Origin: Synechococcus sp. CC9902
GTDB taxonomy: Bacteria > Cyanobacteriota > Cyanobacteriia > PCC-6307 > Cyanobiaceae
Reading direction: 5' to 3'
Assembly (NCBI RefSeq): GCF_000012505.1
Contig: NC_007513.1
Span: 248,001 to 312,000, forward strand
Length of the DNA stretch: 64,000 bases
The notes beneath the pieces were generated by a model that was not told the origin of the DNA, ran no database searches, and saw only the letters and a program-made list of their open reading frames with translations. The position numbers were made by a program, and so were the translations under genes. Shown here in pieces: positions 6,337 through 20,893 of this stretch (the stretch's first letter is position 1; the number at the start of each line of letters is the position of its first letter).

Positions 6337-7541
6337 GTCACGTTTTTGACTAAAGGGTCGTGGCTGAGGAGATTCTCCAAAGCCTTCACGACTTGGTCTT
6401 GTTGCGTGGCCGTTAATTCAGGAAAGATCGGCAAGCTCAGGACCTCACTACACAATCGTTCTGTGACAGGAAAAGTGCCTTCTCCATGTCCGAGGTGGGC
6501 GTATGCCGGTTGGCGATGAATCGGAATTGGGTAATAAATAATCGTGCTCACCCCTGCATCCTGAAGCGCTTGCTTGAACCAATCCCGGCAACGGCTCTCG
6601 GGCAGGCCGTGGGTGGCGCTGGTGGCGGAGGTTGGGCAGCTACCTGCACAGAGTGGGGAAGCATTGGCACATGGACCCACGCGCACAACGAATTGATTCC
6701 AGCTGTGCCCGTTGTCTCCCTTGGGTAAAACGATGCCGGGTAATTCGGCCAGCCGCTCTAGGTAGCGGTTTGCAATGGTGCTGCGGTTCTTGATCCAACC
6801 CGCCAGTTTTGGCAATTTCACATTGAGCACCGCTGCCTGGATCGCGTCGAGGCGGCTGTTGTATCCGAGGGCCGTGTGGAGATAACGCTGTGGCATGCCA
6901 TGCACAGCAAGCTCTCGCATGGTTTGGGCGAGCCCAGCATCGTTGGTGGTGACGGCACCACCATCACCAGCCGCACCAAGGTTTTTGGTGGGGAAGAAAC
7001 TAAAGCAGCCCACATCACCGAAGCTTCCTACAGGCTGACCAGCCCAGGTGGCGCCAGTCGCCTGGGCGCAGTCTTCGACCACCTTGAGGTTGTGGGTGGT
7101 AGCAATGGCCATGCATCGGGTCATGTCCACCGGACGACCGAACAGATGCACTGGAATTAGTGCCTTACTGCGTGGTGTGATCACCGCTTCGATTTGATCG
7201 AAGTTGATGAGGTACGTGGTCGGGTCGACATCCACAAAAACGGGAGTGGCGCCAACGGCACTGATCGCTTCCGCTGTGGCGAAAAAACTAAAAGAGCAGG
7301 TAATCACCTCATCACCAGCCCCCACCCCTAGGGCTCGCAGCGCCAGGATCAGGGCATCAGTGCCGCTATTGCAGCCCACAGCAAAATCCACACCCGTGGC
7401 AGCAGCAAATGCTGTTTCGAAGTGTTGGATTTGAGCGCCGCCTATGTATTGGCCGCTCTGCAGCACAGATAGCACTGCCCTCTCGAGATCGGCACTCAGA
7501 TCATTGATCTGTTGGCTGAGGCTGAACGGAGGAACCTGCAT
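6315..7541 (-). CDS. DegT/DnrJ/EryC1/StrS family sugar aminotransferase
   Basis: This PLP-dependent enzyme (408 residues from ATG 7541) transfers an amino group to a nucleotide-activated keto-sugar, typically for surface polysaccharide. Family motifs are clear: GCNSGTDAL (PLP phosphate site), VEDCAQATGA, and SFFPTKNLGAAGDGG with the Schiff-base Lys. I prefer ATG 7541 over a TTG at 7568 that would overlap the upstream redoxin gene. A Cys/Ser/Ala/Pro-rich stretch of about 30 residues (6588-6677) interrupts the usual NQFVVRV...RDWFKQAL region and is not typical. The last codons lie inside direct repeat copy B. Confidence 0.9.
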   Translation of the reverse strand: MQVPPFSLSQQINDLSADLERAVLSVLQSGQYIGGAQIQHFETAFAAATGVDFAVGCNSGTDALILALRALGVGAGDEVITCSFSFFATAEAISAVGATPVFVDVDPTTYLINFDQIEAVITPRSKALIPVHLFGRPVDMTRCMAIATTHNLKVVEDCAQATGATWAGQPVGSFGDVGCFSFFPTKNLGAAGDGGAVTTNDAGLAQTMRELAVHGMPQRYLHTALGYNSRLDAIQAAVLNVKLPKLAGWIKNRSTIANRYLERLAELPGIVLPKGDNGHSWNQFVVRVGPCANASPLCAGSCPTSATSATHGLPESRCRDWFKQALQDAGVSTIIYYPIPIHRQPAYAHLGHGEGTFPVTERLCSEVLSLPIFPELTATQQDQVVKALENLLSHDPLVKNVTQNRMVA

Positions 7542-7560
7542 GAAGGAAATCTTAAGCGGT

Positions 7561-8178
7561 TTAGCCAAACCACTCGGGCTCTTGGCCGGGGTTCCACTTC
7601 ACGTTGCATCCCACTGAGGCCACCTGTTTTTGGCTAACTGATGTTCCTGTCAGCACCGCATTGAGCGCGGCTCGGAGGTCGGATCCATTCAAGGGTTGGT
7701 TGTTGCCGGGCCTACTGGAATCCAGCTGACCCCGATATTGCAGGGTTGGACTGCTGTCCTTGCTGTCCTGGCTGAACAGATAAAACTCTGGTGTACAGGC
7801 GGCTTGGAGGGATTTTGCGAGCACCTGTTGATCGTCCAATAGATACGGAAATGCCCAGCCATGGCGTTGAGCCTGCTCTGCCAGTTGTGCTGGTCCGTCC
7901 TGGGGATGGGTGATCAAGCTGTTGCTGCTGAGGCCAACGAATTGCACCTGAGAAGCGAAGTCGTTCTCCAGGCGAGTGATCTCAGGTTCGATGTGCTTTA
8001 CGAAGGGGCAATGGGCACAAAGCACCATGAGCAGGATTGGCTTTTGCTCAAAGTCCGTTGAGGCGAACGTGTCAGCTTTGACCTGGACGCCGTTGACCTT
8101 GTCTCCGTTGACCCTGGCCAAACGAAATGCTGGCAAAGGTGTTCCAAGGGCCAGCATTGTTGAAGCTGTACGAGCCAT
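7561..8178 (-). CDS. Thioredoxin-fold redoxin (AhpC/TSA-like)
   Basis: This protein of about 205 residues has a thioredoxin fold with the active-site segment VLCAHCPFVKH, a CxxC motif common in the redoxin/AhpC-TSA group that includes many cyanobacterial peroxiredoxin-like proteins. It is probably a thiol oxidoreductase acting in the cytoplasm; the substrate is unknown. I chose ATG 8178 (MARTASTML) because the longer frame to 8229 adds residues unlike the family and nearly reaches the divergent lipoprotein gene. The next minus-strand gene (aminotransferase) begins 20 bases after this stop. Confidence 0.82.
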   Translation of the reverse strand: MARTASTMLALGTPLPAFRLARVNGDKVNGVQVKADTFASTDFEQKPILLMVLCAHCPFVKHIEPEITRLENDFASQVQFVGLSSNSLITHPQDGPAQLAEQAQRHGWAFPYLLDDQQVLAKSLQAACTPEFYLFSQDSKDSSPTLQYRGQLDSSRPGNNQPLNGSDLRAALNAVLTGTSVSQKQVASVGCNVKWNPGQEPEWFG

Positions 8179-8235
8179 CGCAGCACTGCAGATCCAAACG
8201 GTCTCCATCAGGATGGCGCCAGATGGCATGGATGG

Positions 8236-8790
8236 ATGCGGCGGGTCTTGTTGCTCTCAGGCCTCGTCATCGGCCTGGTGAGCTGCGGTGTTTCGTCTGA
8301 ACCCCCAAGTTGGCGGATCTTTGCGTTGCAGCGGCATGGTGCCCATGACGGCCTCGCAGTGGTGAACCAGCCGGATGGCTACGGCATCCACATTGTCTTA
8401 GAAACCGACACCAGTAATCCGGAGGTTTGTCAGCCCCGTTGGTTGCCGGACGCGGCTCGTTTGTTTAATGGCAACGGATCAACCCCATTTAGCTCTGGCC
8501 TCGCCAGCCGCACGGAATTTTTTCAGTCCGTTGCCCGCCGCGACGTCTTGCGGGCGCTTCAGGGTGAGCTCCAGCAACTGTGTGCTCTGCGTGCACCCCA
8601 AGCGCGGTGGACCTGGACCAAGCCTCCGCGGTCAGAAGCGGAGGTGATCCCGGTGGAGTTACCGGCTTTGGAGGAGGAGGACCTCCTGACAAATCCCTTG
8701 GAGGAGCTGAAACGGCTCAAACAACTGATGAAGAATCAATCCGACGGCTTGAAGAGCTCCCAGACCACCGGCTCTGCTTCGCGCCAATAG
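8236..8790 (+). CDS. Putative lipoprotein, function unknown
   Basis: This 184-residue protein begins with a short basic n-region, a hydrophobic stretch and a lipobox-like LVSC (Cys about residue 17), so it is probably lipid-anchored to a membrane. The mature part has no motif I recognise. It ends in a charged tail rich in Glu, Lys and Gln that may be helical. The 3' end overlaps the convergent split-photolyase gene by 55 bases. The start is ATG at 8236, close to the divergent redoxin gene. Confidence 0.7.
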   Translation: MRRVLLLSGLVIGLVSCGVSSEPPSWRIFALQRHGAHDGLAVVNQPDGYGIHIVLETDTSNPEVCQPRWLPDAARLFNGNGSTPFSSGLASRTEFFQSVARRDVLRALQGELQQLCALRAPQARWTWTKPPRSEAEVIPVELPALEEEDLLTNPLEELKRLKQLMKNQSDGLKSSQTTGSASRQ

Positions 8791-9176
8791 CGACTGAATC
8801 GCCCGAGACGAGGAGGACGCGGTAAGTCAACAAAGGGCTCCCCATCAAGAATCCAAAGGGGGCAATCACGGTTGATGGCTGCCCCATGGCGTTGCAATCG
8901 CGGCTCAATGGCACCACTACTGATCACGCCATCAGCTCCATGACGTTCGGCAAACGCCAGCACCTCCGCGACAACATCGCCTTTACGAAGGGTGACCGGG
9001 AGATCTAAACAGCATTCGTAGAGAAAGCCCAGGCGCTTGCGGCTGATGTGCTTCGTACGAATCCAGTCTTGATCGAAAACAAACAGAGCCGGGGCGTCTG
9101 GGTAATCCTCGAGGGCTGGGTTGGTGCTGCCGAGCGACTCCTCATGCACCCAAACAATCGGTCGTTTTAGATCCAT
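8736..9176 (-). CDS. Photolyase/cryptochrome N-terminal (antenna) domain as a separate protein
   Basis: This 146-residue protein resembles the Rossmann-like N-terminal domain of photolyases and cryptochromes (IVWVHEESLGSTNPAL, then ALFVFDQDW, then ADGVISSG and a C-terminal WILDGEPFV). On its own it lacks the FAD-binding domain. That domain is encoded by the gene just upstream, whose stop overlaps this start (TGATG), so the two chains are probably made together and associate. The order is inverted relative to a normal photolyase gene, with the C-terminal domain translated first. Function beyond light-driven DNA repair or light sensing cannot be read. Confidence 0.7.
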   Translation of the reverse strand: MDLKRPIVWVHEESLGSTNPALEDYPDAPALFVFDQDWIRTKHISRKRLGFLYECCLDLPVTLRKGDVVAEVLAFAERHGADGVISSGAIEPRLQRHGAAINRDCPLWILDGEPFVDLPRPPRLGRFSRYWREAEPVVWELFKPSD

Positions 9177-10072
9177 CAGAAGCGCTGGGTGCTGGGGTTT
9201 GGACGAGCCGTCGACTTGTTGCGGTGGTTTTGTCGACGGGCCGGAATGTCACGTATTGGTGCCCGCTGAGTGAACAGGGTGGTCTCGAGCTGTTCGTAGC
9301 TGGCATCGAAGGGGCACTGATTTGCGCTGGAACAGGTCTTGCAGAAACGCCCTTCGCTGTAGCGCTCAAGATTGTCGCGATTGAAAAAGTAGGGCTTGTG
9401 GCTGAAGGTGCTGGCGATCCATTGCCAACTCAAATGGTTGCTGGCGGGATCTCCATCAAGCAAGTGCTCGAGGAACCAATCCGCGCCGGCTTTCCAATGC
9501 ACATGTCGCCAGTGCACCAGCCATGCGGCCATCCACATCCGGGCGTGGTTATGGAGCCAGCCCGTGCTGACCAGTTCCTCCCGAAATCCATCCATGCAGG
9601 CCAATCCTGTGCAGCCATCACGGACGTCGTCTGGGAGCTCTCGGCTGTAGCTGGCCGCGCTGTGGCCGGTTTTGAATGCTTCTTGGTCGTCGTCGATGCG
9701 ATCACCGAGGTCTTGCCACATGCGTTGCCAAAAGTCGCGCCAGCCCAACTCATTGATCAACTTGCTCCCGTCATCGCGTTTGCTGATGCCTTGAAACACC
9801 GCATCACGCACCTCCGCAAGAGTGAAAACACCGTGGCGAATGTAAGGAGACAGACGGGTTACGGCGCCGTTGACGTGATTGCGGCTGCGGGCGTACCGCT
9901 TTACATCCATTTTTCGGATTTGCTTTTCGGCTGCTCTCCGACCGCCACGGATCGGGCTGATCGCACCACTTGCTTCTGGAAACTCTTGTTCCAGCAAGGT
10001 ATTTAGAGCTTCTCGAGAACTTATATCTCTTGGCAAATCACCGGCGATTGGAGGCGAAGCAGGGGCTGGCAC
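9176..10072 (-). CDS. FAD-binding domain of photolyase/cryptochrome family
   Basis: This 298-residue protein consists almost entirely of the helical FAD domain: LINELGWRDFW, TGWLHNHARMWMAAWLV, and DGDPASNHLSWQWIAS, the standard flavin-pocket signatures. Near the C-terminus a Cys cluster (FCKTCSSANQC) could bind metal or an Fe-S cluster, as some prokaryotic photolyases do; this is not proven by sequence alone. The start used is GTG 10072; no ATG is available nearby. It is divergent from fabI and coupled to the downstream antenna-domain gene by a one-base TGATG overlap. Confidence 0.85.
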   Translation of the reverse strand: MPAPASPPIAGDLPRDISSREALNTLLEQEFPEASGAISPIRGGRRAAEKQIRKMDVKRYARSRNHVNGAVTRLSPYIRHGVFTLAEVRDAVFQGISKRDDGSKLINELGWRDFWQRMWQDLGDRIDDDQEAFKTGHSAASYSRELPDDVRDGCTGLACMDGFREELVSTGWLHNHARMWMAAWLVHWRHVHWKAGADWFLEHLLDGDPASNHLSWQWIASTFSHKPYFFNRDNLERYSEGRFCKTCSSANQCPFDASYEQLETTLFTQRAPIRDIPARRQNHRNKSTARPNPSTQRF

Positions 10073-10156
10073 CGGCTTTCTGAAGCATCGGGCGTTTGAT
10101 CTTGGCGGGGGATGGGGGAGAATCGCGCGAATTCAACCCTGTTCCGGTTCGTTCTG

Positions 10157-10939
10157 ATGCTGCTCGATCTCACCGGCAAAAAAATCTTGGTTACCGGCAT
10201 TGCCAACAACCGCTCGATTGCCTGGGGCATCGCTCAGCAACTCAAAGCGGCAGGTGCTGACCTTGGCATCACCTACCTCCCCGACGACAAAGGCCGTTTT
10301 GAATCCAAGGTGCGTGAGCTCACCGCTCCTTTGGAGCCCAGCTTGTTCTTGCCCCTGAATGTCCAAGATCCAGAACAGATGGCGAGTGTGTTCGCCGAGA
10401 TCAAAGAAAAGTGGGGCGTCCTTGATGGTTTGGTCCACTGCCTGGCTTTCGCCGGCAAAGAGGAATTGATTGGTGATTACAGCGCCACCACGGCGGAAGG
10501 TTTTGCGCGCTCCTTGGATATCAGCGCCTATTCCTTGGCTCCACTCTGTGCCCATGCCAAGCCGCTGTTCAGCGAGAAGGCTGGTGTGATCACCCTCTCC
10601 TACCTGGGCGCTGACCGCGCGATCCCGAACTACAACGTCATGGGTGTTGCTAAGGCAGCCCTAGAAGCGTCAGTTCGCTACTTGGCTGCCGAGCTCGGTC
10701 CGGACAAGCAGGTTCGCGTCAATGCCATCAGTGCCGGCCCCATCCGCACGCTGGCCAGTTCAGCCATCGGCGGCATCCTCGACATGATTCACCACGTTGA
10801 GGAAAGAGCTCCTTTGCGTCGCACCGTCACTCAGATGGAAGTGGGAGGCACTGCTGCGTTTCTCTTGAGCGACCTGGCTAGCGGGATTTCGGGGCAAACC
10901 ATTTATGTGGATGCCGGCTACTGCGTGACTGGGATGTGA
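10157..10939 (+). CDS. fabI: Enoyl-[acyl-carrier-protein] reductase (NADH)
   Basis: This 260-residue short-chain dehydrogenase performs the last reduction of each fatty-acid elongation cycle. The FabI pattern is clear: LVTGIANNRSIAWGIA at the cofactor site, the catalytic Tyr-x6-Lys in NYNVMGVAKAA, and ISAGPIRTLA after it. I chose ATG 10157 because it gives the standard N-terminus (MLLDLTGKK); the longer frame from 10112 adds 15 residues unlike the family. It is divergent from the FAD-domain gene. Confidence 0.96.
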   Translation: MLLDLTGKKILVTGIANNRSIAWGIAQQLKAAGADLGITYLPDDKGRFESKVRELTAPLEPSLFLPLNVQDPEQMASVFAEIKEKWGVLDGLVHCLAFAGKEELIGDYSATTAEGFARSLDISAYSLAPLCAHAKPLFSEKAGVITLSYLGADRAIPNYNVMGVAKAALEASVRYLAAELGPDKQVRVNAISAGPIRTLASSAIGGILDMIHHVEERAPLRRTVTQMEVGGTAAFLLSDLASGISGQTIYVDAGYCVTGM

Positions 10940-10943
10940 TTCC

Positions 10944-10966
10944 CGATCCCTAGCCCATGGGGATCG
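10944..10966 (+). terminator. Weak hairpin after fabI
   Basis: A 7-bp inverted repeat (CGATCCC ... GGGATCG, 10944-10950 and 10960-10966) with a 9-base loop lies just after the fabI stop and is followed by TTGG. There is no real U tract, so it is only a possible terminator or attenuator before hisB. Confidence 0.3.
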
Positions 10967-11106
10967 TTGGCTTGGCTGTTGAACCACAACAGATTGGTCC
11001 GAGCGAAACATCCCCTCTTGCCGGGGTTTGGGTTGAGTGGTTTGGCGAATGGGCCAATGCTTCGCCATGATCAGCGCACAGCAACGGTCGATGGGAATTC
11101 AGGAGC

Positions 11107-11712
11107 ATGCGCACGGGTGAAGTTCACCGCCATACCGGCGAGACCGACGTCAAGGTCAAGCTCGACCTCGATGGAAGTGGTTGTTGCGAGGCTTCTACCG
11201 GTGTGCCCTTCCTCGATCACATGCTGAATCAAATCAGCAGCCATGGATTAATCGATCTGACGATTACTGCGGTGGGTGATACCCACATCGATGATCACCA
11301 CACCAACGAAGACGTGGGCATCGCGGTGGGTCAGGCCCTCAGTCAAGCCTTAGGTGATCGAAAGGGGATCCATCGGTTTGGTCATTTTGTGGCGCCCCTC
11401 GATGAAGCCCTTGTGCAAGTGGCATTGGATTGCTCTGGTCGGCCTCATATCAGCTATGGGCTAACCATTCCTACCCAAAAGATTGGCAGTTACGACACAG
11501 AATTGGTCAAAGAATTTTTCGTCGCAGTTGCGAATAACAGTGGGCTCACCCTGCATATCCGCCAGTTGGATGGTGTGAATTCCCATCACATCGTGGAGGC
11601 CTGCTTTAAGGCTTTTGCCCGTGCTCTGCGTATGGCCACTGAAATTGATCCCCGTCGAGCCGGCGCGATCCCGAGCAGTAAAGGTGTTTTAGAGCAGGCT
11701 GGCGCCAACTAA
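11107..11712 (+). CDS. hisB: Imidazoleglycerol-phosphate dehydratase
   Basis: This 201-residue enzyme dehydrates imidazole-glycerol phosphate in histidine synthesis. It has both metal-binding repeats: DHHTNED in the first half and NSHHIVEA in the second, plus FLDHML. It is the monofunctional type, without the phosphatase domain seen in enterobacteria. ATG 11107 gives the expected length, although the AGGAG-like sequence sits almost against the ATG, so a slightly different start is possible. Confidence 0.95.
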
Positions 11713-11779: not shown

Positions 11780-13249
11780 GTGACTGTTGCACCCACCCGT
11801 CCATACAGCCGCGAGGACTGGTCGAGTGCCTTCGTCAATGTGGATGAAGAGCTCACCGATGTGGCGCTCATCCCTGTGCGTGGCACCATTCCCTCCGAAC
11901 TCAAGGGCACGCTCTATCGCAATGGTCCTGGCCGCCTAGAACGCAATGGCCATCGGGTTCACCACCCCTTCGATGGCGACGGAATGATCGCCGCGATGCG
12001 GTTTGAGAATGGCGCTGTTTCCCTCACCAATCGTTTTGTCCGCACGGAAGGTTGGCTCGCCGAGGAAAAGGCCAATAAGGTTCTTTATCGCGGTGTCTTT
12101 GGGAGTCAGAAGCCCGGTGGGCGCCTCGCCAATGCCTTCGATTTACGGCTGAAAAACATCGCCAATACCAATGTGGTGCGGCTTGGGGATCAGCTTCTAG
12201 CTCTCTGGGAGGCTGCAGAGCCCCATGCCCTTGACCCCGTCAGTTTGGAAACGCGTGGCTTGTCACGGATGGATGGTGTGTTGAAAAAGGGAGAGGCGTT
12301 TAGTGCTCACCCGCGCTTCGATGCTGGGCACCACGACCGCCCGAGGATGGTCACATTTGGGGTGAAAGCTGGCCCCCGCAGCACCATCCGCTTAATGGAG
12401 TTCGCCACCGATGGCCCAGATGCTGGTGTGCTTTTGAACGACCGATCCGACAGCTTTCCGGGCTTCGCGTTCTTGCACGACTTTGCGATAACACCCAACT
12501 GGGCGGTGTTTCTTCAAAACGCTATTTCCTTCAATCCGCTGCCGTTTGTCACTGGAGAAAAGGGCGCTGCGCAATGTTTGGCGTCCCAGCCGGGTGGGAA
12601 AGGACGCTTCTGGTTGATTCCTCGAGATTGTGGTCGTTTCGCTGGTCAAAAACCGCGCATCCTTGAAGCTCCAGATGGATTTGTGTTCCATCACCTCAAT
12701 GCCTTTGAGGATGGAGATCACGTGGTGGTGGAGAGCATCGTTTACGACGACTTTCCATCGATTGGTCCAGACGATGATTTTGCCCAGGTCGATTTCGACA
12801 GCATTCCAGAGGGGATCCTGCATCGTTGCCGGCTTGATTTGAGTCGTGAGATGGTTCAAACCGAGCGGATTGCCAACCGCACCTGCGAGTTCGCCATGGT
12901 GAATCCTCAGCGCCAGGGACTTTCAGCGCAATATGCCTGGATGGCGGTGGCCGAACGGGATATCGGTAATGATCCGCTGCAGGCTATCCAGAAGCTGGAT
13001 CTGAGCTCTGGCGACACCAGCACATGGAGTGCTGCGCCCCGTGGTTTCGTTAGCGAGCCCTTGATGGTTGCTCGCCCTGGTGCTTCCGCAGAGGATGATG
13101 GTTGGGTGCTGGATTTGGTCTGGAACGGAGCGCGCGGAGCGTCCGACCTGGTGATCCTCAATGCGGCTGACTTATCTGAAGCGGCCGTACTCGAATTGCC
13201 CTTGGCGATTCCCCATGGACTGCATGGCAGCTGGGCAGCATCGGTCTGA
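11780..13249 (+). CDS. Carotenoid cleavage oxygenase (apocarotenoid 15,15'-oxygenase type)
   Basis: This 489-residue non-haem iron dioxygenase has the seven-bladed propeller fold of the RPE65/ACO family. The four iron-ligating His positions are recognisable in GHHDRPRM, FLHDFAI, FHHLNAFEDGD and IPHGLHGSW, and the N-terminal GTLYRNGPG and HHPFDGDGM signatures are present. It probably cleaves apocarotenals to retinal-type products. The start is GTG 11780 (TVAPTRPYSREDW). It begins 67 bases after hisB and may share its transcript. Confidence 0.9.
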   Translation: MTVAPTRPYSREDWSSAFVNVDEELTDVALIPVRGTIPSELKGTLYRNGPGRLERNGHRVHHPFDGDGMIAAMRFENGAVSLTNRFVRTEGWLAEEKANKVLYRGVFGSQKPGGRLANAFDLRLKNIANTNVVRLGDQLLALWEAAEPHALDPVSLETRGLSRMDGVLKKGEAFSAHPRFDAGHHDRPRMVTFGVKAGPRSTIRLMEFATDGPDAGVLLNDRSDSFPGFAFLHDFAITPNWAVFLQNAISFNPLPFVTGEKGAAQCLASQPGGKGRFWLIPRDCGRFAGQKPRILEAPDGFVFHHLNAFEDGDHVVVESIVYDDFPSIGPDDDFAQVDFDSIPEGILHRCRLDLSREMVQTERIANRTCEFAMVNPQRQGLSAQYAWMAVAERDIGNDPLQAIQKLDLSSGDTSTWSAAPRGFVSEPLMVARPGASAEDDGWVLDLVWNGARGASDLVILNAADLSEAAVLELPLAIPHGLHGSWAASV

Positions 13250-13346: not shown

Positions 13347-14027
13347 ATGCGGAGTTTTAGAGCTGTTGTGATCGTTGGCTTGCTGTTGGGAGCGGCAACT
13401 CCGATGCATGCGCACGAGGTGAGGTGTGACGGAACTCTGTTGGAGCTTGCCGTCGTCGAGGAGGGCACCAGCCACACAGATCGTTTTCAATTCGCCTTGC
13501 GTTTGGAAGCGAAAGCCAGTTCGAAGAACGATGCTTTGAACGAATTGAATCGTCGGCTCGGCACGGTTCGCCGAAAGATTTCTGGCTTGGCGATGGGGGG
13601 ACTCATCGTGTCGGCCCCACGCACTTATACGGTTGGCAGCACAACTGCAACTCAGCAGCGTCATCAGGCCACCTCCAGCATCACCGGTGAGGTGAGCCGT
13701 TCCAACTACGACCCCTTGATTCAGCAGGCTGGACGTTTGCCCGGCGTCAGTCTTCAGGGGATGACGTCGCTGTCCTCCACGGATGGTGCACGTTCTCTGC
13801 AACAGCAATTGCTTGAGAGAGCCTTAGCCACAGGGCGGCGACAAGCGGAGTCCACACAGCAGCTGTTGGGACTACGCCAACTTCGGTTGATCCGGATTGA
13901 TCAGCGCAGTGGGGGAGGTGCTCTACGCATGAGTGCCCTGTCTCGCAAGGAAAGGAGTTTTGACCCAGCTGAAGCGCCCAAACCCCGTCAATCCATTCGA
14001 CTCAATCTCGACTATTGCTTGAATTGA
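13347..14027 (+). CDS. SIMPL-domain (DUF541-like) exported protein
   Basis: This 226-residue protein has an N-terminal signal peptide (basic start, hydrophobic core, cleavage probably after MHA). It then has the SIMPL pattern: an amphipathic beta segment (FQFALRLEAKA), a helix with repeated Leu (ALNELNRRLGTVRRKISGL), and a late ALATGRRQAESTQQLLGL helix. Such proteins are periplasmic and often linked to stress, but the function is not established. I start at ATG 13347 rather than the TTG just before it. Confidence 0.72.
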   Translation: MRSFRAVVIVGLLLGAATPMHAHEVRCDGTLLELAVVEEGTSHTDRFQFALRLEAKASSKNDALNELNRRLGTVRRKISGLAMGGLIVSAPRTYTVGSTTATQQRHQATSSITGEVSRSNYDPLIQQAGRLPGVSLQGMTSLSSTDGARSLQQQLLERALATGRRQAESTQQLLGLRQLRLIRIDQRSGGGALRMSALSRKERSFDPAEAPKPRQSIRLNLDYCLN

Positions 14028-14122
14028 TCCCTATGCCGTTGTTGTGACTGTTGAGCGGAAGTGAATTCGTTGGTAAGACCATATTTCTAGCGTGATAATT
14101 TGATGATCATCGTTGATCCTTT

Positions 14123-15187
14123 GTGCCCACTTCATTTGCTCTTCCGCAGATCAATAGCGATGAGCGGATGTTGTGGATTCATGCTGGGCCTCATAAGGCA
14201 GCCAGCAGTTATGTAACTGAACGGTTGCGTAAAAATCGCAGCACCTTGGCGGCACAAAGAGTATTAATGGATGGAGATAATAATCTCCTCGCTAATTCTA
14301 TTGCCGAGAAAAATTATCAGCCTTTGGAACAGGCCCTTTCAGGATTGCCGAGTGATTTTCAACGTATTTTAATTAGCAGTTCATCCCTTGATACGCGAAT
14401 TCTGAAACGGAGTGTTCTGACTATTCTCCGTGATATGGCATCATCATATGGATTTAAACTTGGCATTAGTTATTTTATTAGAGACCAGCAATCCTGGCTG
14501 AATTCGGTATATTGTCATCGTGTCCGACGCTTTCGTTCAACGCAAGATTTTCCTGATTATTGTCGATATATTATGAATAATCCAAGCTCTTGGGATATTA
14601 GTTATCCGTCAAAATTTAGCCCCCTGAAGGATTATCCAGAGATTGTAAAAATGTTTCTGCCTTTGTCCCGGCAAGTGGAAATAACAGATCCTTTTCTTGC
14701 CTTGACGTCCGCTTTAGGCTTAAAGGAGCCCCCTGGAATTGGCTGGCTAAAGGGAGAGCCTTCGAAAAAGAATATTCAGCCCGGTGCCAAAGGGATTTGG
14801 ATGTCTCGGGTTTGTTATCAGCTTATGGAATCTCTAGGTTTTGATCCGGATGTGTTGAATCGCAAGGGGAAAGTGATTCGTGATCTTGCGATTGAGCGAG
14901 GTTGGGATCAGGAGAAGTTTGATGGTTTTGATCAGCCACTTCTGGATCGCGTGGCCGGTTTTTATGCGTCATCCAATGATGCCTTTTCGCGTGAGCATTG
15001 GGGTGTTTCTTGGAATGAATTGTTTCCGGTGAAGGCGGCTTCTCAATTTGTTTATTCGGGGCCGGACTCTGAACAGGAGAAGAAAGAAATGCGTCGTTTG
15101 ATGGTTCGTGTGTTGCGAGAGCTTCACTTCCCTTGGCCTTTGCGCAAGAGATTTTTTAAGGGCTATGACTCCATCGTTGCTGGATGA
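14123..15187 (+). CDS. Sulfotransferase-like P-loop protein in AT-rich DNA
   Basis: This 354-residue protein begins with a degenerate sulfotransferase 5'-PSB-like loop (LWIHAGPHKAASSYVTERL, about residues 17-35). It carries a later FIRDQQSWLNSVYCHRVRRF segment like the 3'-PB region of polysaccharide sulfotransferases. The canonical Lys-x-Gly-Thr-Thr is changed to KAASS, so activity is uncertain. It may modify a surface glycan. The start is GTG 14123; ATG 14168 just before the loop is an alternative. Base composition is clearly more AT-rich than the neighbours, suggesting transfer, and the flanking bases (14028-14122, 15188-15368) are AT-rich and non-coding. Confidence 0.6.
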   Translation: MPTSFALPQINSDERMLWIHAGPHKAASSYVTERLRKNRSTLAAQRVLMDGDNNLLANSIAEKNYQPLEQALSGLPSDFQRILISSSSLDTRILKRSVLTILRDMASSYGFKLGISYFIRDQQSWLNSVYCHRVRRFRSTQDFPDYCRYIMNNPSSWDISYPSKFSPLKDYPEIVKMFLPLSRQVEITDPFLALTSALGLKEPPGIGWLKGEPSKKNIQPGAKGIWMSRVCYQLMESLGFDPDVLNRKGKVIRDLAIERGWDQEKFDGFDQPLLDRVAGFYASSNDAFSREHWGVSWNELFPVKAASQFVYSGPDSEQEKKEMRRLMVRVLRELHFPWPLRKRFFKGYDSIVAG

Positions 15188-15368
15188 GCTAATTCTCATA
15201 TCATCCAGATGTCATTTATGCATAAAATGTTAATTGATTCAAAAATGAATAGTGTTAATAGCCTTCTATATTCTCTAGTTTCGGGAATTATCCGAAGCTG
15301 GTATTTTCATGTTTTGCAAATAGCTTTTTAAATTATATTTTATTGAGCTAGTTAAATATATGTTTGGA

Positions 15369-16919
15369 TTAATTTGATCTGTTTTGCTTTAAGGATTCTT
15401 TCCAGGCGAGGCGCGGTGCACTCCAAAGCGTGAACAGCACTAAGGGTGTTACCGGAACAGCTGTAATCACGATGAAGGCTTGCAGGGCATCGATCGAGGT
15501 GCTGTCACCAAGCCCGGTTCCGATGCGCAGCAGCACCAGGGTGAGGCTGCCGATCATTAGGGCCCAGAACAGGCGCAGGGCTGGAGGTGGCTCGTTGCGG
15601 CCACTCACCACCATGGCCGCGGCATAACTCATTGAATCGGCACTGGTGCACATAAACAGCACCACAAGAATGAGTCCGACAGGGATGAGTAGGCCAGAGA
15701 GTGGAAGCGCGCTGAGAATTGCGAGCAAGGCTGCTGCTGCTCCGTTCTGTGCAAGGGCGTCCGTAATCCCAGCGCCGGCAAGCTCAAGATGCATGCCAGT
15801 TCCACCGAGCAACGTGAACCAAAGGTTGGTCACGATCGGGCAGAAGATTGCGACGGCCAACACGAGTTCTCGCAGGCTGCGTCCACGGCTCACTCCCGCC
15901 GTAAATAAGCCCATGAGTGGTGCGTAACCAAGAAACCAACCCCAATAGAACACCGTCCAACCATTGACCCAATTGTTCGCAGAATCGTTCTGAGCCAGGG
16001 CCATCTGGGGGAGATGGATCAAGTAGGTGAGGAAGCCGCTGAAAAAATGCTGAATCAACCAGAGGCCAGGGCCAAGCAGGAGTAGTGCTGCTGCCATCCC
16101 GATGGTGAGCCACACATTGAGCTCAGAGAGCCATTTGATGCCCTTTTGTATTCCGCTAACTGTCGATGTAGCGAACACAGCTGTAAGCATGAGCACCACG
16201 ACAGATTGCAATCCAGCGCTATCGCTTAACCAGGGGAGCTGACCGGCGGCATTGCTCAGTTGGAGGGATAGGAAGCCCAAGGGGCCCACAGTTCCTGCAA
16301 TGGCAGCCACCACTGATAGGCCATCTGCCAAGTCACCCAGCGGACCATCAACGAGTTGTCTCGGCAGGATATTGACCAGCAGGGTGCGAGGGCGGAGTGG
16401 TTCTCCACGTCGTTCCAAAATGGAATAGGTAATGGTCGTGGTGGTTGCCACCAACGCCCAAGCCAAAAAGCCCCAGTGCAGGAAGCTCACGGCTAATGCT
16501 GGGTCGACCGCTGCGGCAGTTCCTCCCGTTACCCCCTCGAAGGTTGGTGATGGTGTTTGGAAGTGAAAGAGCGGCTCAGCTGCCGACCAAAACACCCCAC
16601 CTCCTGCCAACAGCGTGCAGATCAAAACTGCACACCAGTCAAAGAATTTCAGGCTTGGCTTCGCATCTTCTCCGCCGAGGCGGAGGCGGCCAACCGGACT
16701 GATGGCAATCGCGATTGCGATCAGAAACAGCAGCAACACCATCCATTGCCAGATTCCTCCAAGCGCATTGCTCACAATCGCCTTGCCTGTTTCGGTGAAG
16801 TGCTTTGCCAGAGCTAAATCGATAGCGGAGACCACCAGGAAGATCAGCAGTGGTCCAGCACCCACCCAGAGCGGGGGTTGTTTCCACCAGGAGCGAGACG
16901 TTGTTGGAATTTCAGACAC
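15369..16919 (-). CDS. BCCT family transporter (betaine/carnitine/choline type)
   Basis: This 516-residue inner-membrane transporter of the BCCT fold has about 12 hydrophobic helices. Signature segments include FWSAAEPLFHF, LHWGFLAWAL, NWVNGWTVFYWGWFLGYAPLMGLF (shortened here) and SADSMSYAAA, as in sodium- or proton-driven glycine betaine uptake systems. It lacks the long C-terminal osmosensor tail of BetP. The substrate is probably a quaternary or methylated amine. It follows the flavin oxidase gene (start 16919, upstream stop 16952, gap 32 bases), so it is probably the last gene of the accessory operon. Confidence 0.88.
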   Translation of the reverse strand: MSEIPTTSRSWWKQPPLWVGAGPLLIFLVVSAIDLALAKHFTETGKAIVSNALGGIWQWMVLLLFLIAIAIAISPVGRLRLGGEDAKPSLKFFDWCAVLICTLLAGGGVFWSAAEPLFHFQTPSPTFEGVTGGTAAAVDPALAVSFLHWGFLAWALVATTTTITYSILERRGEPLRPRTLLVNILPRQLVDGPLGDLADGLSVVAAIAGTVGPLGFLSLQLSNAAGQLPWLSDSAGLQSVVVLMLTAVFATSTVSGIQKGIKWLSELNVWLTIGMAAALLLLGPGLWLIQHFFSGFLTYLIHLPQMALAQNDSANNWVNGWTVFYWGWFLGYAPLMGLFTAGVSRGRSLRELVLAVAIFCPIVTNLWFTLLGGTGMHLELAGAGITDALAQNGAAAALLAILSALPLSGLLIPVGLILVVLFMCTSADSMSYAAAMVVSGRNEPPPALRLFWALMIGSLTLVLLRIGTGLGDSTSIDALQAFIVITAVPVTPLVLFTLWSAPRLAWKESLKQNRSN

Positions 16920-16951
16920 AGTTCAAAAACGATGGATTCTTCGGTGCGGAC

Positions 16952-18145
16952 TTAGGCGCAGACGGCAGAACGCTTGTGGTTCCAGCAGGAAATATCGACG
17001 GCGGGTGATTCTCCTCTGGCTAAGCGTGCGAGGGAGTCGCCAATCAAGGGTGCGAATTTGAACGATTGCCCAGATCCGCCGCAGAACAAACTCAACTTGG
17101 GGCTGAGGCGATCAAGAACGAAGTTCACATCGCTGGTCATCGAATACGGGCTGATGACAGTTTCGACGCGCTCCTGAATCCCACTCACGTTGTTGAACAG
17201 AAAATGGTCGAGCAATTCGACTAGCCGTGCCGGTGGTTCGCTGCACATGGCATTGGGTTCTTTCACCCGCAACTCTTTGGGGGCCCAATCGATGCCAGCT
17301 TTGATGCGAGGACGTCCATCGCTGGTGGTGCTGAGGACAGGAAAGCCGTAGTACAAGCCACCGTCATCACCCCGTTCCTTCTGGAAGCAGAACCACTGGG
17401 GATACCGATCGGCAAGGGCTGGATCCACGGTGTAATGTGCCCAAAGCATTGGCCACACCTCAAGTTTGGGCGCTAACCCCAAAGGTGCCAAGAGCAACTG
17501 GCTCCAAACGCCGCAAGCCACAACAACTTGATCGGCGGCAATGTGCTGACCGGATTCCAGGAGAACACCACCGCCATCGTCATCCAAGCTGCGCACCGGA
17601 GCATGTTCAACCAGCCGGTGGCCGGCTTGTTCAGCCGTTTTTCGCCAATGGGCAATGACTTTGTCACTGCGAACCGCACCGGCAGTGGGTTCAAACAGGC
17701 CAGTGAAGTCTGCTTTTGGCTTTAAGGGGAACCGCGCTGAGATCTCCCCAGCATTCAGAGCTTCATATGGGATGCCTTGGTCGTCCATGACGCGCCGGGC
17801 GCCAGGAATTGATCCTTCAATGGTTTCTTCATCCCAGCTTTCTCCATAAAAGAGCAAGCCATGGGTTTCACGCAGGGTCTCACCGGCGTGAACTTCCTCT
17901 TCCCTCCAGAGCCGATTGGCTTCTTGGGCCAGCTTGCAGAGCACTGGGTCGGAGTACATCTCCCGGAACATTCGGGTTTCGCCAAAGCTGCTGGCTTGGG
18001 CGTGAGCCAGAGTTTTGGCCTCTAACAGCACAACATCAGAAACGCCCTGCCGGGCGAGCGATGCGGCGCAACTCAAGCCGGCCATTCCTCCGCCGATGAT
18101 CACCACGGAGGCTTGATCGGGGAGGGATGAAAGGTTGTTGCTCAT
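16952..18145 (-). CDS. FAD-dependent amine oxidase, sarcosine oxidase/N-methyltryptophan oxidase-like
   Basis: This 397-residue flavoprotein has an N-terminal dinucleotide-binding motif (VVIIGGGMAGLSCA, about 14-27) and the C-terminal GGSGQSFKFAPLIGDSLA that matches the monomeric sarcosine oxidase family. This family oxidises N-methyl or secondary amines. The Cys that binds FAD covalently in that family (CMYT context) is Ser332 here (ISPYSMT), so the flavin is probably not covalently attached and the substrate may differ. The ATG overlaps the dehydrogenase stop by 4 bases (ATGA). The BCCT gene follows. Confidence 0.82.
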   Translation of the reverse strand: MSNNLSSLPDQASVVIIGGGMAGLSCAASLARQGVSDVVLLEAKTLAHAQASSFGETRMFREMYSDPVLCKLAQEANRLWREEEVHAGETLRETHGLLFYGESWDEETIEGSIPGARRVMDDQGIPYEALNAGEISARFPLKPKADFTGLFEPTAGAVRSDKVIAHWRKTAEQAGHRLVEHAPVRSLDDDGGGVLLESGQHIAADQVVVACGVWSQLLLAPLGLAPKLEVWPMLWAHYTVDPALADRYPQWFCFQKERGDDGGLYYGFPVLSTTSDGRPRIKAGIDWAPKELRVKEPNAMCSEPPARLVELLDHFLFNNVSGIQERVETVISPYSMTSDVNFVLDRLSPKLSLFCGGSGQSFKFAPLIGDSLARLARGESPAVDISCWNHKRSAVCA

Positions 18146-19197
18146 GGGGTGTCTTTAAAGCTCAGGCCGATGGGATCGGTGGCGGTATCTGCTGCGACTT
18201 CGGTGAGCGCATCTCCTACTGATAGCCCTTGTTCGCGTTGCGACAAGTATTCGGTTGCCCTTCGGCGCACTTCGCTACGAACGAAGGCGTAAACGTCTTC
18301 AGCGCCGGCACCTTTCCAGGCTTGTGGTGAAAAACGCTCGATCGAGTCGGCAATCACCGCACCAGCATTCACCAGAGGATCGGGGAGAACGGGGATCCCA
18401 CGCTGGCGAAGTTCGTCGGCGAGTTGAGGGTTCTGGAAGGGAGCATTGGCCGCCGGCACCACGGCCTTTGTTCGCATTCCTTCAGCAATCTCGGAGTTGA
18501 TCAATCCGGAGATTGAGCAAGGAAGCATCAGATCCACTTTCACTTCCCACCAGGGGCAGCTGGGAGGCAGAGGAGTGGCACCGGCCAAGCCAGCACGCTC
18601 CCGGTTGAGATCCACGGTGAAGACTGTCCAGCCTTCCTCCACCAGAGTTTTTGCGACGGTTCCCCCAACGGCTCCACAACCATGGACGAGGGCTCGTCCG
18701 GGGGTGGCATCTTTAAGGTCGCTGCTCAGTACGGCTTCGACGGCTCCGAGGGTGCCGTGGGCCGTGGCTGCACTCGCATCGACGGGGCTCCCAACGGCTG
18801 CAAGAACATGGGGTGTGAGCGACATCAGCCGCTCCATGTCTTCCAAGCTTGTGTTCAGGTCACATCCTGTGATCATCGAGCCATCCAGCGACTCCAGCAG
18901 ACCTGCGGTCACGCTGATCAGTTCGTCTTTAACCGCAGCGGGCTCTTGCGCGCGTGCCACGATTTTGCCGCCGGCGAAACCGGTGCCATAAAGGTCGTGC
19001 TTGTGGGTCATTAAACCCGCCAACCGTTGACCATCAGCGATGCAGGCTTCATCGCTTGGGTAATTCAAAAGTCTTAATCCACCATTGGCTGGTCGTTTCG
19101 AGTCGGTGTTTTCTGCGACGACAAAAACTGAAAGATGCGCTGAGACGTGTTGAGCCAGAACCGACACGCTCGGCTCTGGCTTGGTTGCATTGGCCAT
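18142..19197 (-). CDS. Glu/Leu/Phe/Val dehydrogenase family protein
   Basis: This 351-residue NAD(P)-dependent oxidoreductase interconverts an amino acid and its 2-keto acid, releasing or fixing ammonium. It has two conserved catalytic Lys contexts (MTHKHD Lys66, AGGKIV Lys78), MITGCDLNTS as in leucine dehydrogenases, and the Rossmann motif HGCGAVGG. The exact amino acid is not readable; it is nearer to Leu/Val than to hexameric glutamate dehydrogenases by length. ATG 19197 overlaps the methyltransferase stop (TGATG) and its own stop overlaps the oxidase start, so it is tightly coupled on both sides. Confidence 0.85.
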   Translation of the reverse strand: MANATKPEPSVSVLAQHVSAHLSVFVVAENTDSKRPANGGLRLLNYPSDEACIADGQRLAGLMTHKHDLYGTGFAGGKIVARAQEPAAVKDELISVTAGLLESLDGSMITGCDLNTSLEDMERLMSLTPHVLAAVGSPVDASAATAHGTLGAVEAVLSSDLKDATPGRALVHGCGAVGGTVAKTLVEEGWTVFTVDLNRERAGLAGATPLPPSCPWWEVKVDLMLPCSISGLINSEIAEGMRTKAVVPAANAPFQNPQLADELRQRGIPVLPDPLVNAGAVIADSIERFSPQAWKGAGAEDVYAFVRSEVRRRATEYLSQREQGLSVGDALTEVAADTATDPIGLSFKDTP

Positions 19198-19874
19198 CAA
19201 GCAACTTTCTCCATCATCTGGTGATGCTCCACGTAATCCAGGCTCCACTCATCCGGGGCAGCGGCGATGCGCTGTTCAAGACGGTCATACACCTGATCCG
19301 CGATCGTGTCCCCAGCGACGGATGCAAAGCTGTGGCGGCTCCAACTCCGGATGGTGGCCATGAGGCCAGCCGCGAAGGTTGCCGTGTCGCCGTCCTCATT
19401 CCAACGGCGGCGGTATGGGCACTTCACATACACCGTGCGTTCATCCACCAAACGGAGTCCGTTGCGGTATGCCGCTGAATTGGTGTCTTTCAGCGGTGTC
19501 ATGAATTCTTCAGGGGATTTGTAGAAATTCAGGACAGTTCCTTTTTTATAAATCTCCTCAGTAATGACGCCTTCATCGGCAAGGCCACGCCAGATCTGAT
19601 GCAGTTGGTCGTGCACATTGCGAGTTTCGCCTCCGTTGTGGCCCAAATAGCGACCTTCCTCATCCCGGGAGAGGTTCACCGTGAGGAGTCGGCCGCCAAC
19701 TTTGAGCTCCAAACTGCGCAGTTCGAGGACGTAAGCCCAATCCTTCAGTGCTTGGGTTGTGAATCGCGTCAGAGCCTCTGAATCTCCAGATGCCAACACG
19801 TGCGTGTGGGTTTCAAGGGGACCAGGGGATTCACTCAGCCAGTGCATTGCAGTGGCTGAGAAGCCAAAACTCAC
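19197..19874 (-). CDS. SABATH-type SAM methyltransferase, C-terminal part
   Basis: These 225 residues correspond to the larger C-terminal part of a SABATH carboxyl/N-methyltransferase (Methyltransf_7). SFGFSATAMHWLS matches the family's substrate-pocket segment, and the rest is the helical cap and core. The frame is open upstream of the GTG start and reads SFYEPSVAPDTV, the segment that normally comes just before. So this part and the 119-residue frame at 19871-20230 look like one gene broken by a -1 or +2 shift near 19893-19900. The GTG lies in a GTGA overlap with the first part's stop, so coupled expression of two chains is also possible. The substrate is unknown. Confidence 0.68.
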   Translation of the reverse strand: MSFGFSATAMHWLSESPGPLETHTHVLASGDSEALTRFTTQALKDWAYVLELRSLELKVGGRLLTVNLSRDEEGRYLGHNGGETRNVHDQLHQIWRGLADEGVITEEIYKKGTVLNFYKSPEEFMTPLKDTNSAAYRNGLRLVDERTVYVKCPYRRRWNEDGDTATFAAGLMATIRSWSRHSFASVAGDTIADQVYDRLEQRIAAAPDEWSLDYVEHHQMMEKVA

Positions 19875-20230
19875 CGTGTCTGGCGCGACGGAGGGTTCAT
19901 AGAAGCTGCGCTCACCAAAACAGTTGGTTTTGGTGTTCGTGCAATTTGTTGGGCCAAGTTTTCAGCCAGAGCCACGTTGTCGTTGCTCGGCAGGTCGTTG
20001 CCGATCAGCGTGAGGTGGGCCTTGGGTTGATTGGCGTGCAACCGGTCCAGCACCTGGCTCCAGAGACCGACTGCAGTGCCTCCATCAGCAGCGCCGTAAT
20101 CGATCAGCACGTAGCTGGATTGGGCAGGAAGTTGGTCTACACAAGTCAGGGCCCAGTCCGAGGCGGCGTTGATGCAGAGCAGTGCGCCTTCGGTCTGTGC
20201 GCTGTAACCCGTGGTCATGGCGATGGCCAT
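19871..20230 (-). CDS. SABATH-type SAM methyltransferase, N-terminal (SAM-binding) part
   Basis: This 119-residue frame carries the SAM-binding motif of SABATH enzymes (YVLIDYGAADGGTAVGLW) and the following NDLPSND loop. It ends VLVSAASMNPPSRQTR, where the last ten residues are unlike the family and look like out-of-frame reading. The matching continuation (SFYEPS...) is in the next frame. Together with 19197-19874 it would make about 340 residues, the normal SABATH length. ATG 20230 is the first of two ATGs (MAIAM). It is probably the first gene of the accessory operon, 72 bases after rdgB. Confidence 0.65.
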   Translation of the reverse strand: MAIAMTTGYSAQTEGALLCINAASDWALTCVDQLPAQSSYVLIDYGAADGGTAVGLWSQVLDRLHANQPKAHLTLIGNDLPSNDNVALAENLAQQIARTPKPTVLVSAASMNPPSRQTR

Positions 20231-20302: not shown

Positions 20303-20893
20303 TTAATCAACGGCAATCAGGTTTTTTAGCAGTGGTTCCAGGAGAGCGAAGGCTCGCCCTCGGTGGCCGTAGCTCTTTTTTTCAGCCAGGGACATTTCTG
20401 CAAATGTGCGCCCAGTGTTGTTGACCTCAAAAATGGGGTCGTATCCAAAGCCTTGATCGCCGCGGGGGGTCTTCGTGATTTGGCCTTCACAACGGCCTTC
20501 CACTTCGAGCAACACTGCACCATCAGGAGCGGCAACACAGAGCGCTGCACTGAAGTGAGCGGAGCGCTCGTTGCACTGGAGCAAAGCTGCGAGCAATTTC
20601 TCGATGCGCTCAGGATCCGTTGGTGCGTAACGCGCCGAGTGCACTCCTGGGGCGCCATTCAAGGCTGAAACGCTCAGGCCCGAGTCGTCGGCGAGGGCCC
20701 AATGTCCTGTGGTTTGCGCCACAGCAAGGGCTTTGATTCGAGCATTCGCAGCGAATGTGGCGCCGGTTTCTTCCACGTCGAGGCCTTCTGGCTGTGGTTT
20801 TACCTCCAGAGGTAATCCGCTCAAGAGCCCTTGAAATTCATGAATTTTGCCTTGATTGCCACTGGCGATCACGAGCACCCGGTTCTCTGTCAT
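20303..20893 (-). CDS. rdgB: XTP/dITP diphosphatase (RdgB/Ham1 family)
   Basis: This 196-residue enzyme hydrolyses non-canonical purine NTPs (ITP, dITP, XTP) to keep them out of DNA and RNA. The family pattern is clear: VIASGNQGKIHEF at the N-terminus, ALADDSGL and GFGYDPIF, and FAEMSLAEKKSYGHRGRA at the C-terminus. The ATG overlaps the pgm stop by 4 bases (ATGA), so the two are translated from one transcript. Confidence 0.95.
   Translation of the reverse strand: MTENRVLVIASGNQGKIHEFQGLLSGLPLEVKPQPEGLDVEETGATFAANARIKALAVAQTTGHWALADDSGLSVSALNGAPGVHSARYAPTDPERIEKLLAALLQCNERSAHFSAALCVAAPDGAVLLEVEGRCEGQITKTPRGDQGFGYDPIFEVNNTGRTFAEMSLAEKKSYGHRGRAFALLEPLLKNLIAVD

Follow-up and report, generated by a model that had tools for sequence, protein, structure and literature searches.

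Which compound is served by the cluster of minus-strand genes at positions 15369 to 20230 of this 64,000-nucleotide stretch of the Synechococcus sp. CC9902 genome (hereafter the window), and is that compound made or degraded by their products? An earlier note had proposed that the genes make, import or break down a methylated, betaine-like compound derived from an amino acid, leaving both the compound and the direction open. That general idea is supported by our analysis, and the two points left open now point to synthesis of homarine. We consider it rather probable, from sequence comparison, that the cluster is a biosynthetic operon for homarine from lysine, with a transporter included. It consists of the following features.

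19197..20230, minus strand: SABATH methyltransferase gene (MTase), split by a frameshift into 19871-20230 and 19197-19874 (Pfam Methyltransf_7, intact frames of relatives)
19907..19911, minus strand: site of a 4-base deletion inside MTase, one CGCA of a tandem pair (DNA alignment, three relatives)
18142..19197, minus strand: Leu/Glu-type amino-acid dehydrogenase (DH) (Pfam ELFV_dehydrog and its N domain)
16952..18145, minus strand: NikD-like flavoprotein of the monomeric sarcosine oxidase family (profile match to NikD, residue comparison)
15369..16919, minus strand: BCCT-family transporter (Pfam BCCT)

Five head-to-tail frames with overlapping junctions had been described, and all of these frames and junctions are present in the window. 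The two MTase frames overlap at GTGA, TGATG combines the MTase stop with the DH start (ATG at 19197), ATGA at 18142-18145 combines the DH stop with the flavoprotein start, and a 32-base gap (16920-16951) separates the flavoprotein gene from the BCCT gene. The real number of genes is four, however, because the frames of 119 and 225 amino acids are parts of one MTase gene; the GTGA overlap is thus a by-product of the frameshift and not operon architecture. Both parts lie within a single open frame of 345-346 codons, free of internal stops, in 18 of 18 fetched relatives, an observation that led us to reject programmed frameshifting. The nearest of these relatives (L021) has a CGCA-CGCA tandem in MTase where the window, in the DNA alignment with three relatives, is 4 bases short. 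The 225-residue frame matches Methyltransf_7 at 55.1 bits, above the curated cut-off, and the 119-residue frame taken alone matches no Pfam family; the intact MTase of Synechococcus WH7803 scores 77.7 bits (cut-off 29.8).

The four families travel together, so that the absence of co-conservation, which the earlier note had named as a refutation, did not occur. All 18 fetched relatives, 15 of which share the site, have MTase, DH, flavoprotein and BCCT genes adjacent and in the same order. So do 29 of 32 named loci, a set overlapping the 18; the other three loci stop at a contig end. When the MTase, flavoprotein and BCCT genes were searched for in 34 genomes of the genus, they were present together in 28 and absent together from the same six. 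A sample of 292 cyanobacterial genomes gave MTase in 13 (at E up to 1e-5), the flavoprotein in the same 13 plus one distant match, and DH in the same 13 plus three distant matches (both at E up to 1e-20). Relative to L021, dN/dS is 0.015-0.037 across the MTase C part, DH, flavoprotein and BCCT genes. With order kept and dN/dS low, the association of these genes is beyond chance.

Scanning for RNA families returned none, promoter-like sites numbered 0 (2.2 expected) and terminator-like sites 7 (7.3 expected). Carriage by phages was also considered; none of 35 pattern matches in viral contigs encodes a relative. A Rhizobium plasmid encodes a methyltransferase 33% identical to MTase and adjoining a flavoprotein, but we did not count this pair as the same pathway because its flavoprotein barely matches (best E = 0.018 over 25 residues). 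Two further plasmid matches, at 23.5% and 28% identity, were set aside: one is unannotated, and the other has no flavoprotein, DH and BCCT genes among its listed features.

The family names given earlier for the four products proved correct, with Pfam BCCT, DAO, ELFV_dehydrog and Methyltransf_7 all scoring above curated cut-offs. For the flavoprotein (DAO, 155.6 bits), the profile of alignment A4, which excludes the frameshifted L038 copy, gave NikD as its best PDB match (138.5 bits), followed by sarcosine oxidase 7exs (128.7), monomeric sarcosine oxidases (99.7-111.3) and N-methyltryptophan oxidase (91). The single-sequence search is a tie between NikD and 7exs (115.3 and 115.5 bits), identity is 31.5% to NikD and 34.3% to 7exs, and the fork joining NikD to the Synechococcus sequences has support of 92/89 under a long-branch warning. 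The profile scores thus place the flavoprotein nearer to NikD, which oxidises an imino acid to an aromatic ring, than to any solved sarcosine oxidase, while by single sequence it ties with one of these. It misses the curated NCBIfam cut-offs for soxA_mon (137 of 479.65 bits) and N-methyl-L-tryptophan oxidase (185.4 of 257 bits).

Residues were compared with NikD R53, E101, Y258, D276 and K358, which we take to be its active site; E101 and D276 were fixed before any alignment. The counterparts R61, E110, Y266, D286 and K363 are invariant in 18 flavoprotein sequences. E110 is found in two of ten family controls and D286 in one, a Paracoccus enzyme that carries both, whereas the matches at R61 and K363 (ten of ten controls) and Y266 (seven of ten) do not discriminate. 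Seven of the controls came from plasmid records matching the flavoprotein, among the matches listed (20 of 58). The stretches EG.I.G....MD and WF.FQ are common to the flavoprotein and NikD and complete in none of the controls. NikD presumably also relies on W355 and on FAD bound covalently to C321. The former is replaced by Q360 in the flavoprotein, and no Cys occurs within residues 320-345 in any of the 18 sequences, whereas NikD and all ten controls have the flavin-linking Cys.

The DH matches ELFV_dehydrog at 59.1 bits and its N domain at 29.1 bits (cut-offs 23.4 and 25.3), and by sequence its nearest solved structures are Leu, Trp and Phe dehydrogenases. Structure predictions drew on alignments A6 and A7, of 14 and 13 rows, from the window and named loci. 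The predicted DH model (pLDDT 74.4) finds its best fold matches in Leu and Phe dehydrogenases at TM-scores of about 0.5-0.66, a comparison of overall fold without residue-level superposition. The catalytic residues of leucine dehydrogenase (LeuDH), Lys68, Lys80 and Asp115, correspond to K67, K79 and D114 in all 19 enzymes, numbered from one codon upstream of the ATG. Pocket position 40, which is Leu in LeuDH and Met in the tryptophan dehydrogenase 5b37, is Asn (N39) in 19 of 19 operon enzymes and in all three MAFFT modes. D285 falls opposite LeuDH V294 in three of five HMMER alignments and one of three MAFFT modes, and we propose that an acidic residue at this pocket position would hold the lysine amino group. 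We put forward the DH as a candidate L-lysine 2-dehydrogenase, which we take to be EC 1.4.1.15, the substrate being a guess.

Methyltransf_7 is the sole Pfam match of MTase, both for the C part in the window and for the WH7803 copy. An HW motif, which we take as a mark of SABATH enzymes, is present as H131 W132 and invariant in the 18 sequences of the MTase alignment (A2), made without the broken copy of the window. Among solved SABATH proteins a fatty-acid O-methyltransferase comes nearest to MTase, and most of the near ones are carboxyl O-methyltransferases; the caffeine-type structure 2efj scores 20.6 bits against the MTase profile. The predicted MTase structure (pLDDT 47.7) was too low in confidence for inspection. 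Family assignment alone settles the substrate of neither DH nor MTase; for the latter we infer picolinate. The BCCT protein (429 bits, cut-off 27) has the trimethylamine transporter, DddT and BetP among its nearest solved structures and misses the cut-off of the glycine-betaine equivalog NF047988 (296.6 of 650 bits); it is proposed to be a homarine or betaine transporter.

Together, these assignments suggest a four-step scheme. The DH, with NAD+, would strip the 2-amino group from L-lysine, and the keto acid would cyclise to piperideine-2-carboxylate. By homology, the NikD-like flavoprotein would then carry out a four-electron oxidation of this compound to picolinate, a conversion that excerpts of PMC4021061 describe for NikD and a lysine-derived substrate. 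The SABATH enzyme would methylate the ring nitrogen, with SAM as donor, to yield homarine; coffee has SABATH N-methyltransferases that act on nicotinate and make trigonelline (excerpts of PMC8877179). Finally, the BCCT carrier would import homarine or recapture what has leaked. Direct support from our analysis consists of gene content, order, co-inheritance, selection, family membership and residue conservation.

Homarine (N-methylpicolinate) is a zwitterionic compatible solute, widespread in the sea and thought to protect against salt. Published amounts were corrected to 1/25 of the original values. After correction, homarine makes up as much as 0.25% of the particulate carbon of transect samples and, according to PMC8269262 and PMC10134881, was found in both Synechococcus strains tested, at up to 18 mM in WH8102 and about 0.2 mM in WH7803. 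It also occurs in diatoms and a haptophyte (excerpt of PMC8269262). The amount in WH7803 is some 90 times below that in WH8102 despite an intact operon. WH7803 (L046) has all four genes, with matches free of stops. WH8102 has a BetT-like gene, SYNW0229, within a predicted five-gene operon, SYNW0229-0233 (excerpt of PMC2874817); its size is as expected for BCCT, flavoprotein, DH, MTase and rdgB, a content suggested by the gene numbers. Of the two homarine-positive strains, then, WH7803 carries the operon and WH8102 probably does too. The same paper, a network study of WH8102, lists candidate betaine-transporter subunits, and we infer that this set corresponds to the operon. A partial literature search found no published genes for homarine synthesis, and it is about an even bet that the present set is the first proposed in any organism, so far as our searches show.

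Other products and directions have to be weighed. The gene content would also fit another N-methylated cyclic betaine made by the same logic, such as a derivative of pipecolate, proline or pyrrole built from lysine or ornithine: the substrates of DH and MTase are not fixed by family, and Q360 could signal a different product. We regard this as rather unlikely, since the flavoprotein resembles the aromatising NikD at E110, in the loop around it and at D286, and homarine was measured in the operon-bearing WH7803. The kinship of MTase with carboxyl O-methyltransferases would suit a methyl ester such as methyl picolinate, as a volatile or signal. This seems quite improbable given the betaine-type carrier in the operon and the homarine found in WH7803 and in WH8102, which probably has the operon as well. 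Glycine-betaine synthesis was rejected on the Methyltransf_7-only match, judged on the operon gene alone.

Catabolism of an imported methylated amine, with entry through BCCT, demethylation by the flavoprotein and deamination by the DH, appears very improbable. BCCT and sarcosine-oxidase-family genes do adjoin, beside a Rieske oxygenase, in a distant cyanobacterium (G338), as betaine breakdown predicts. However, the fetched G338 neighbourhood contains no match to MTase or DH, its enzyme has the sarcosine-oxidase Cys and His that the operon flavoprotein lacks, the operon has no gene for a Rieske-type demethylase, and a methyltransferase that spends SAM is not easily fitted into breakdown. Outside the family, G338 was the one cyanobacterium in the sample to have a related flavoprotein; as its neighbourhood is a different one, we did not retain betaine breakdown.

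If homarine is the product, the N-methylation step has probably been lost in the window's own genome by a recent frameshift, which would make the strain a natural mutant. The break looks recent because the rest of the MTase gene is conserved: relative to L021, dN/dS is 0.015 for the C part and 0.171 for the N part, with seven differences. Relaxed selection on the N part was rejected, as four of these differences are out-of-frame codons that directly follow the deletion, and the remaining three fall where the sequence is variable. It is unlikely, although the idea deserves some weight, that the two frames form a working split enzyme or that the frameshift is a sequencing error, either of which would leave the strain no mutant. 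The GTGA overlap would permit coupled translation, the C part is still strongly constrained, and operon breaks in other genes of two other genomes may be assembly errors too; against this, none of the 18 fetched relatives has a split MTase, and the lost bases are one copy of a 4-base tandem, a common kind of slippage event.

Should homarine synthesis be confirmed, lysine 2-dehydrogenase activity would gain a gene, antibiotic-type picolinate chemistry would serve an ocean solute, and the window strain would be a natural accumulator of picolinate. The operon would be a marker by which genomes, transcriptomes and metagenomes could be read for homarine production by Synechococcus. This reading would also explain the conserved gene set listed in the WH8102 network study (excerpt of PMC2874817), if the two are identical as we suppose, and it yields single-gene predictions testable in laboratory strains.

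Among known systems, ScyB tryptophan dehydrogenase and leucine dehydrogenases share family and catalytic residues with the DH, which nevertheless misses the curated ScyB cut-off (99 of 600 bits). GsmT/SdmT of WH8102 (SYNW1914/1913) likewise make a betaine solute with SAM and adjoin transporter genes, but at a separate locus (excerpt of PMC2874817), and the operon MTase is Methyltransf_7 only. A homarine catabolism pathway (Ferrer-Gonzalez et al. 2026, as cited in an excerpt of PMC13390433) concerns the same metabolite, but its degradation in environmental bacteria, with Mgd, rather than the synthesis proposed here. The coffee trigonelline synthases CTgS1/CTgS2, likened to MTase by family and reaction, are SABATH enzymes that N-methylate a pyridine carboxylate (excerpt of PMC8877179), with nicotinate as substrate and a plant as host where picolinate is proposed for MTase. 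The picolinate branch of nikkomycin synthesis (NikC/SanL lysine 2-aminotransferase and NikD) leads from lysine through piperideine-2-carboxylate to picolinate and has a NikD-like flavoprotein in common with the operon (excerpt of PMC4021061). It uses an aminotransferase where the operon would use a dehydrogenase, and its picolinate is CoA-activated for an antibiotic, whereas that of the operon would be N-methylated to form a compatible solute.

Five minus-strand frames and their junctions, as the earlier note gave them, are present in the window, and Pfam returns the families it named (BCCT, DAO flavoprotein, ELFV dehydrogenase and Methyltransf_7). The frames are real, but the 119-aa and 225-aa frames are one methyltransferase gene, so that the operon has four genes; with this one correction, the observation is real. 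The names rdgB, hisB and PGM are our presumptive assignments by eye. The locus, in a genome assembled as one contig of 2,234,828 bases, is arranged as follows.

11780-13249, carotenoid-oxygenase-type gene (Pfam RPE65), in the region on the other flank of the operon from rdgB
14123-15187, plus strand, 354-aa gene without a Pfam match, adjoining the operon
15369-16919, minus strand, BCCT transporter
16952-18145, minus strand, flavoprotein
18142-19197, minus strand, dehydrogenase
19197-20230, minus strand, methyltransferase (N part 19871-20230, C part 19197-19874)
20303-20893, rdgB, on one flank of the operon

The two methyltransferase parts lie in one open frame, with no internal stop, in 18/18 relatives searched with the window proteins by tblastn. 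Aligned DNA shows that, where the nearest fetched relative has a CGCA-CGCA tandem, the window gene is short of one unit, a loss of four bases. If the codons read out of frame immediately after the deletion are set aside, three differences from this relative remain in the N part, all at variable positions, and four in the C part (dN/dS 0.015); because the differences are so few and this ratio so low, the break looks recent. It may instead be a sequencing error. Among the 28 genomes of the 34-genome genus scan in which the methyltransferase was detected, one alone, the window's, was reported with a single gene in two pieces; G159 also yielded an additional piece, of 31 residues. At least two other genomes have broken operon genes as assembled, namely the G112 flavoprotein and the G153 BCCT gene. 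The former is frameshifted near codon 55 (locus L038, about 9990-10150), a second operon break or an assembly error, and the latter (G153:C1:2315331-2316863) contains one in-frame TGA.

The earlier note had treated the four families as a unit, and they do occur as one. Of 151 sampled family genomes, 19 carry the flavoprotein (5 of 59 genera; 17 of 95 near-complete genomes), and in all 18 carriers fetched, the window's genome aside, the methyltransferase, dehydrogenase, flavoprotein and BCCT genes are adjacent and in the same order. A named collection yielded 32 loci matched by methyltransferase alignment; 31 have Synechococcus in their titles, and the other is from Cyanobacteria bacterium TMED177. 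The four genes are in order in 29 of these (the BCCT gene of L044 being cut by the contig end), and the operon runs off the contig in L059, L069 and L070. Some named loci come from sampled genomes (RCC307, for one), so the two counts are not independent. Judging by strain names, we take the carriers to be marine.

Within the genus, the methyltransferase, flavoprotein and BCCT genes, the three searched, are each present in 28 of 34 genomes and missing from the same six (G155, G160, G162, G164, G170 and G174), two of which are near-complete and the others 53-79% complete. Across 292 sampled cyanobacteria, 13 genomes have the methyltransferase (threshold 1e-5). All 13 also have the flavoprotein and the dehydrogenase (both at 1e-20); beyond them, the flavoprotein occurs in G338, which belongs to another cyanobacterial family, and the dehydrogenase in three distant genomes.

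In 15 of the 18 fetched relatives, rdgB and the carotenoid-oxygenase gene flank the operon; the fetched stretch of L027 holds only rdgB of these flanks. Neither flank is present in the stretches fetched for L037 (G092, 6183-11072), where the operon has an epimerase-family gene on one side and a photosystem reaction-centre gene on the other, and L031 (G025, 6447-11296), and these sites therefore suggest movement of the operon within the group. In two family members with 1.7-1.8-Mb genomes, G039 and G010, 31 and 50 bases separate the rdgB match from the carotenoid-oxygenase match, and the operon is absent between them. G155, G009, G029 and G045 have the same neighbours, likewise without the operon, and the G174 stretch lacks both the operon and rdgB. 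The AT-rich stretch beside the window's operon (GC 0.466 for 14001-16000) includes the 354-aa gene, which is at the same spot in some relatives only, and also in the operon-less G155; this spot is a variable site.

We consider homarine synthesis (lysine to piperideine-2-carboxylate to picolinate to homarine) the most likely function of the operon, and hold this with moderate confidence, every chemical step being predicted. The nikkomycin pathway forms piperideine-2-carboxylate with a lysine 2-aminotransferase, and a sarcosine-oxidase-family enzyme then converts it to picolinate (PMC4021061, in part). By single-sequence comparison, the operon flavoprotein ties between sarcosine oxidase 7exs (115.5 bits) and the nikkomycin enzyme NikD (115.3 bits). 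A profile of 18 flavoproteins places NikD at the top with 138.5 bits, against 128.7 for the next, 99.7-111.3 for monomeric sarcosine oxidases and 91 for N-methyltryptophan oxidase. In a 17-row tree, NikD joins six Synechococcus rows with support of 92/89, under a long-branch warning.

As presumed key NikD positions we used E101, Y258, D276 and W355, fixed before any alignment, and R53, C321 and K358, added once the first alignment was known; all seven have the expected residue type in the NikD sequence. R53, E101, Y258, D276 and K358 are identical in the operon flavoprotein, where they are R61, E110, Y266, D286 and K363, and W355 is Gln; C321 is without a counterpart, residues 320-345 being free of Cys in 18/18 operon flavoproteins. 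Ten controls of the same family (seven plasmid proteins, 7exs, 1zov and G338) all carry R61 and K363, and seven carry Y266, so these matches say little. E110 occurs in two controls (Paracoccus and G338) and D286 in one (Paracoccus). Among positions beyond these seven, which were chosen after the alignment was seen, G111, F254 and Q255 occur in no control, M120 in one, and D121 and W251 in two each; against these controls, the full EG.I.G....MD and WF.FQ stretches are confined to NikD and the Synechococcus proteins.

The dehydrogenase is closest, by sequence and predicted fold, to leucine, tryptophan and phenylalanine dehydrogenases. It retains Lys68, Lys80 and Asp115, which have substrate or catalysis roles (PMC8766677, in part); in the operon enzyme these are K67, K79 and D114, by a numbering that begins one codon before the ATG. 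Specificity is set by L40, A113, V291 and V294, the first and fourth being Lys89 and Ser380 in glutamate dehydrogenase (PMC2723916, in part). The operon enzyme has Asn, Gly and Val at the first three, and Asp at V294 where the alignment is gapless (3/5 HMMER alignments, 1/3 MAFFT modes). A pocket that is polar, and perhaps acidic, would match lysine as substrate. For the methyltransferase (METHYLTRANSFERASE), the intact copy of Synechococcus WH7803 scores 77.7 bits against Methyltransf_7; the top solved relative is a fatty-acid O-methyltransferase (73.7 bits), followed by salicylate-type, iridoid-acid and caffeine-type enzymes (20.6-38.9 bits). Coffee SABATH enzymes N-methylate nicotinate (PMC8877179, in part). 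The BCCT protein falls far under the glycine-betaine equivalog cut-off; among its solved relatives are carriers for trimethylamine and choline, DddT and BetP.

Both Synechococcus strains examined by Heal et al. contained homarine (PMC8269262, in part). A correction cut all homarine values to 1/25 (PMC10134881), after which the maximum is 18 mM and the WH7803 value about 0.2 mM (PMC8269262, in part; PMC10134881); the higher value is therefore that of WH8102. WH7803 carries the operon. In WH8102, Mao et al. placed the BetT-like SYNW0229 in a predicted operon, SYNW0229-0233, with the other four genes as candidate betaine-transporter subunits (PMC2874817, in part); by number, these five genes fit the predicted BCCT, flavoprotein, dehydrogenase, methyltransferase and rdgB genes. 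Homarine increases with salinity in Emiliania huxleyi (PMC3721227, in part).

Two neighbourhoods elsewhere were also noted. On a Rhizobium sp. CB3171 plasmid (L121, 11944-14339), a 33%-identical methyltransferase adjoins an FAD-binding oxidoreductase that hardly matches the operon flavoprotein; upstream of the pair are an exporter-like frame and a 542-aa gene (both assigned by eye), and the stretch, which has transposase genes, is perhaps another small-molecule cluster. In G338 (L138, 4223-9191), Rieske oxygenase, BCCT and sarcosine-oxidase-type genes stand side by side in what looks like glycine-betaine breakdown. In the partial literature covered, which was judged largely by titles and abstract starts and has most subscription journals and preprints outside it, we recognised no paper naming a homarine synthesis gene. 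A 2021 paper says that such genes are lacking (PMC8269247, in part), and homarine catabolism is treated in a 2026 paper cited in PMC13390433 (in part). The parts of the operon are of known kinds, and their combination is, as far as we searched, new.
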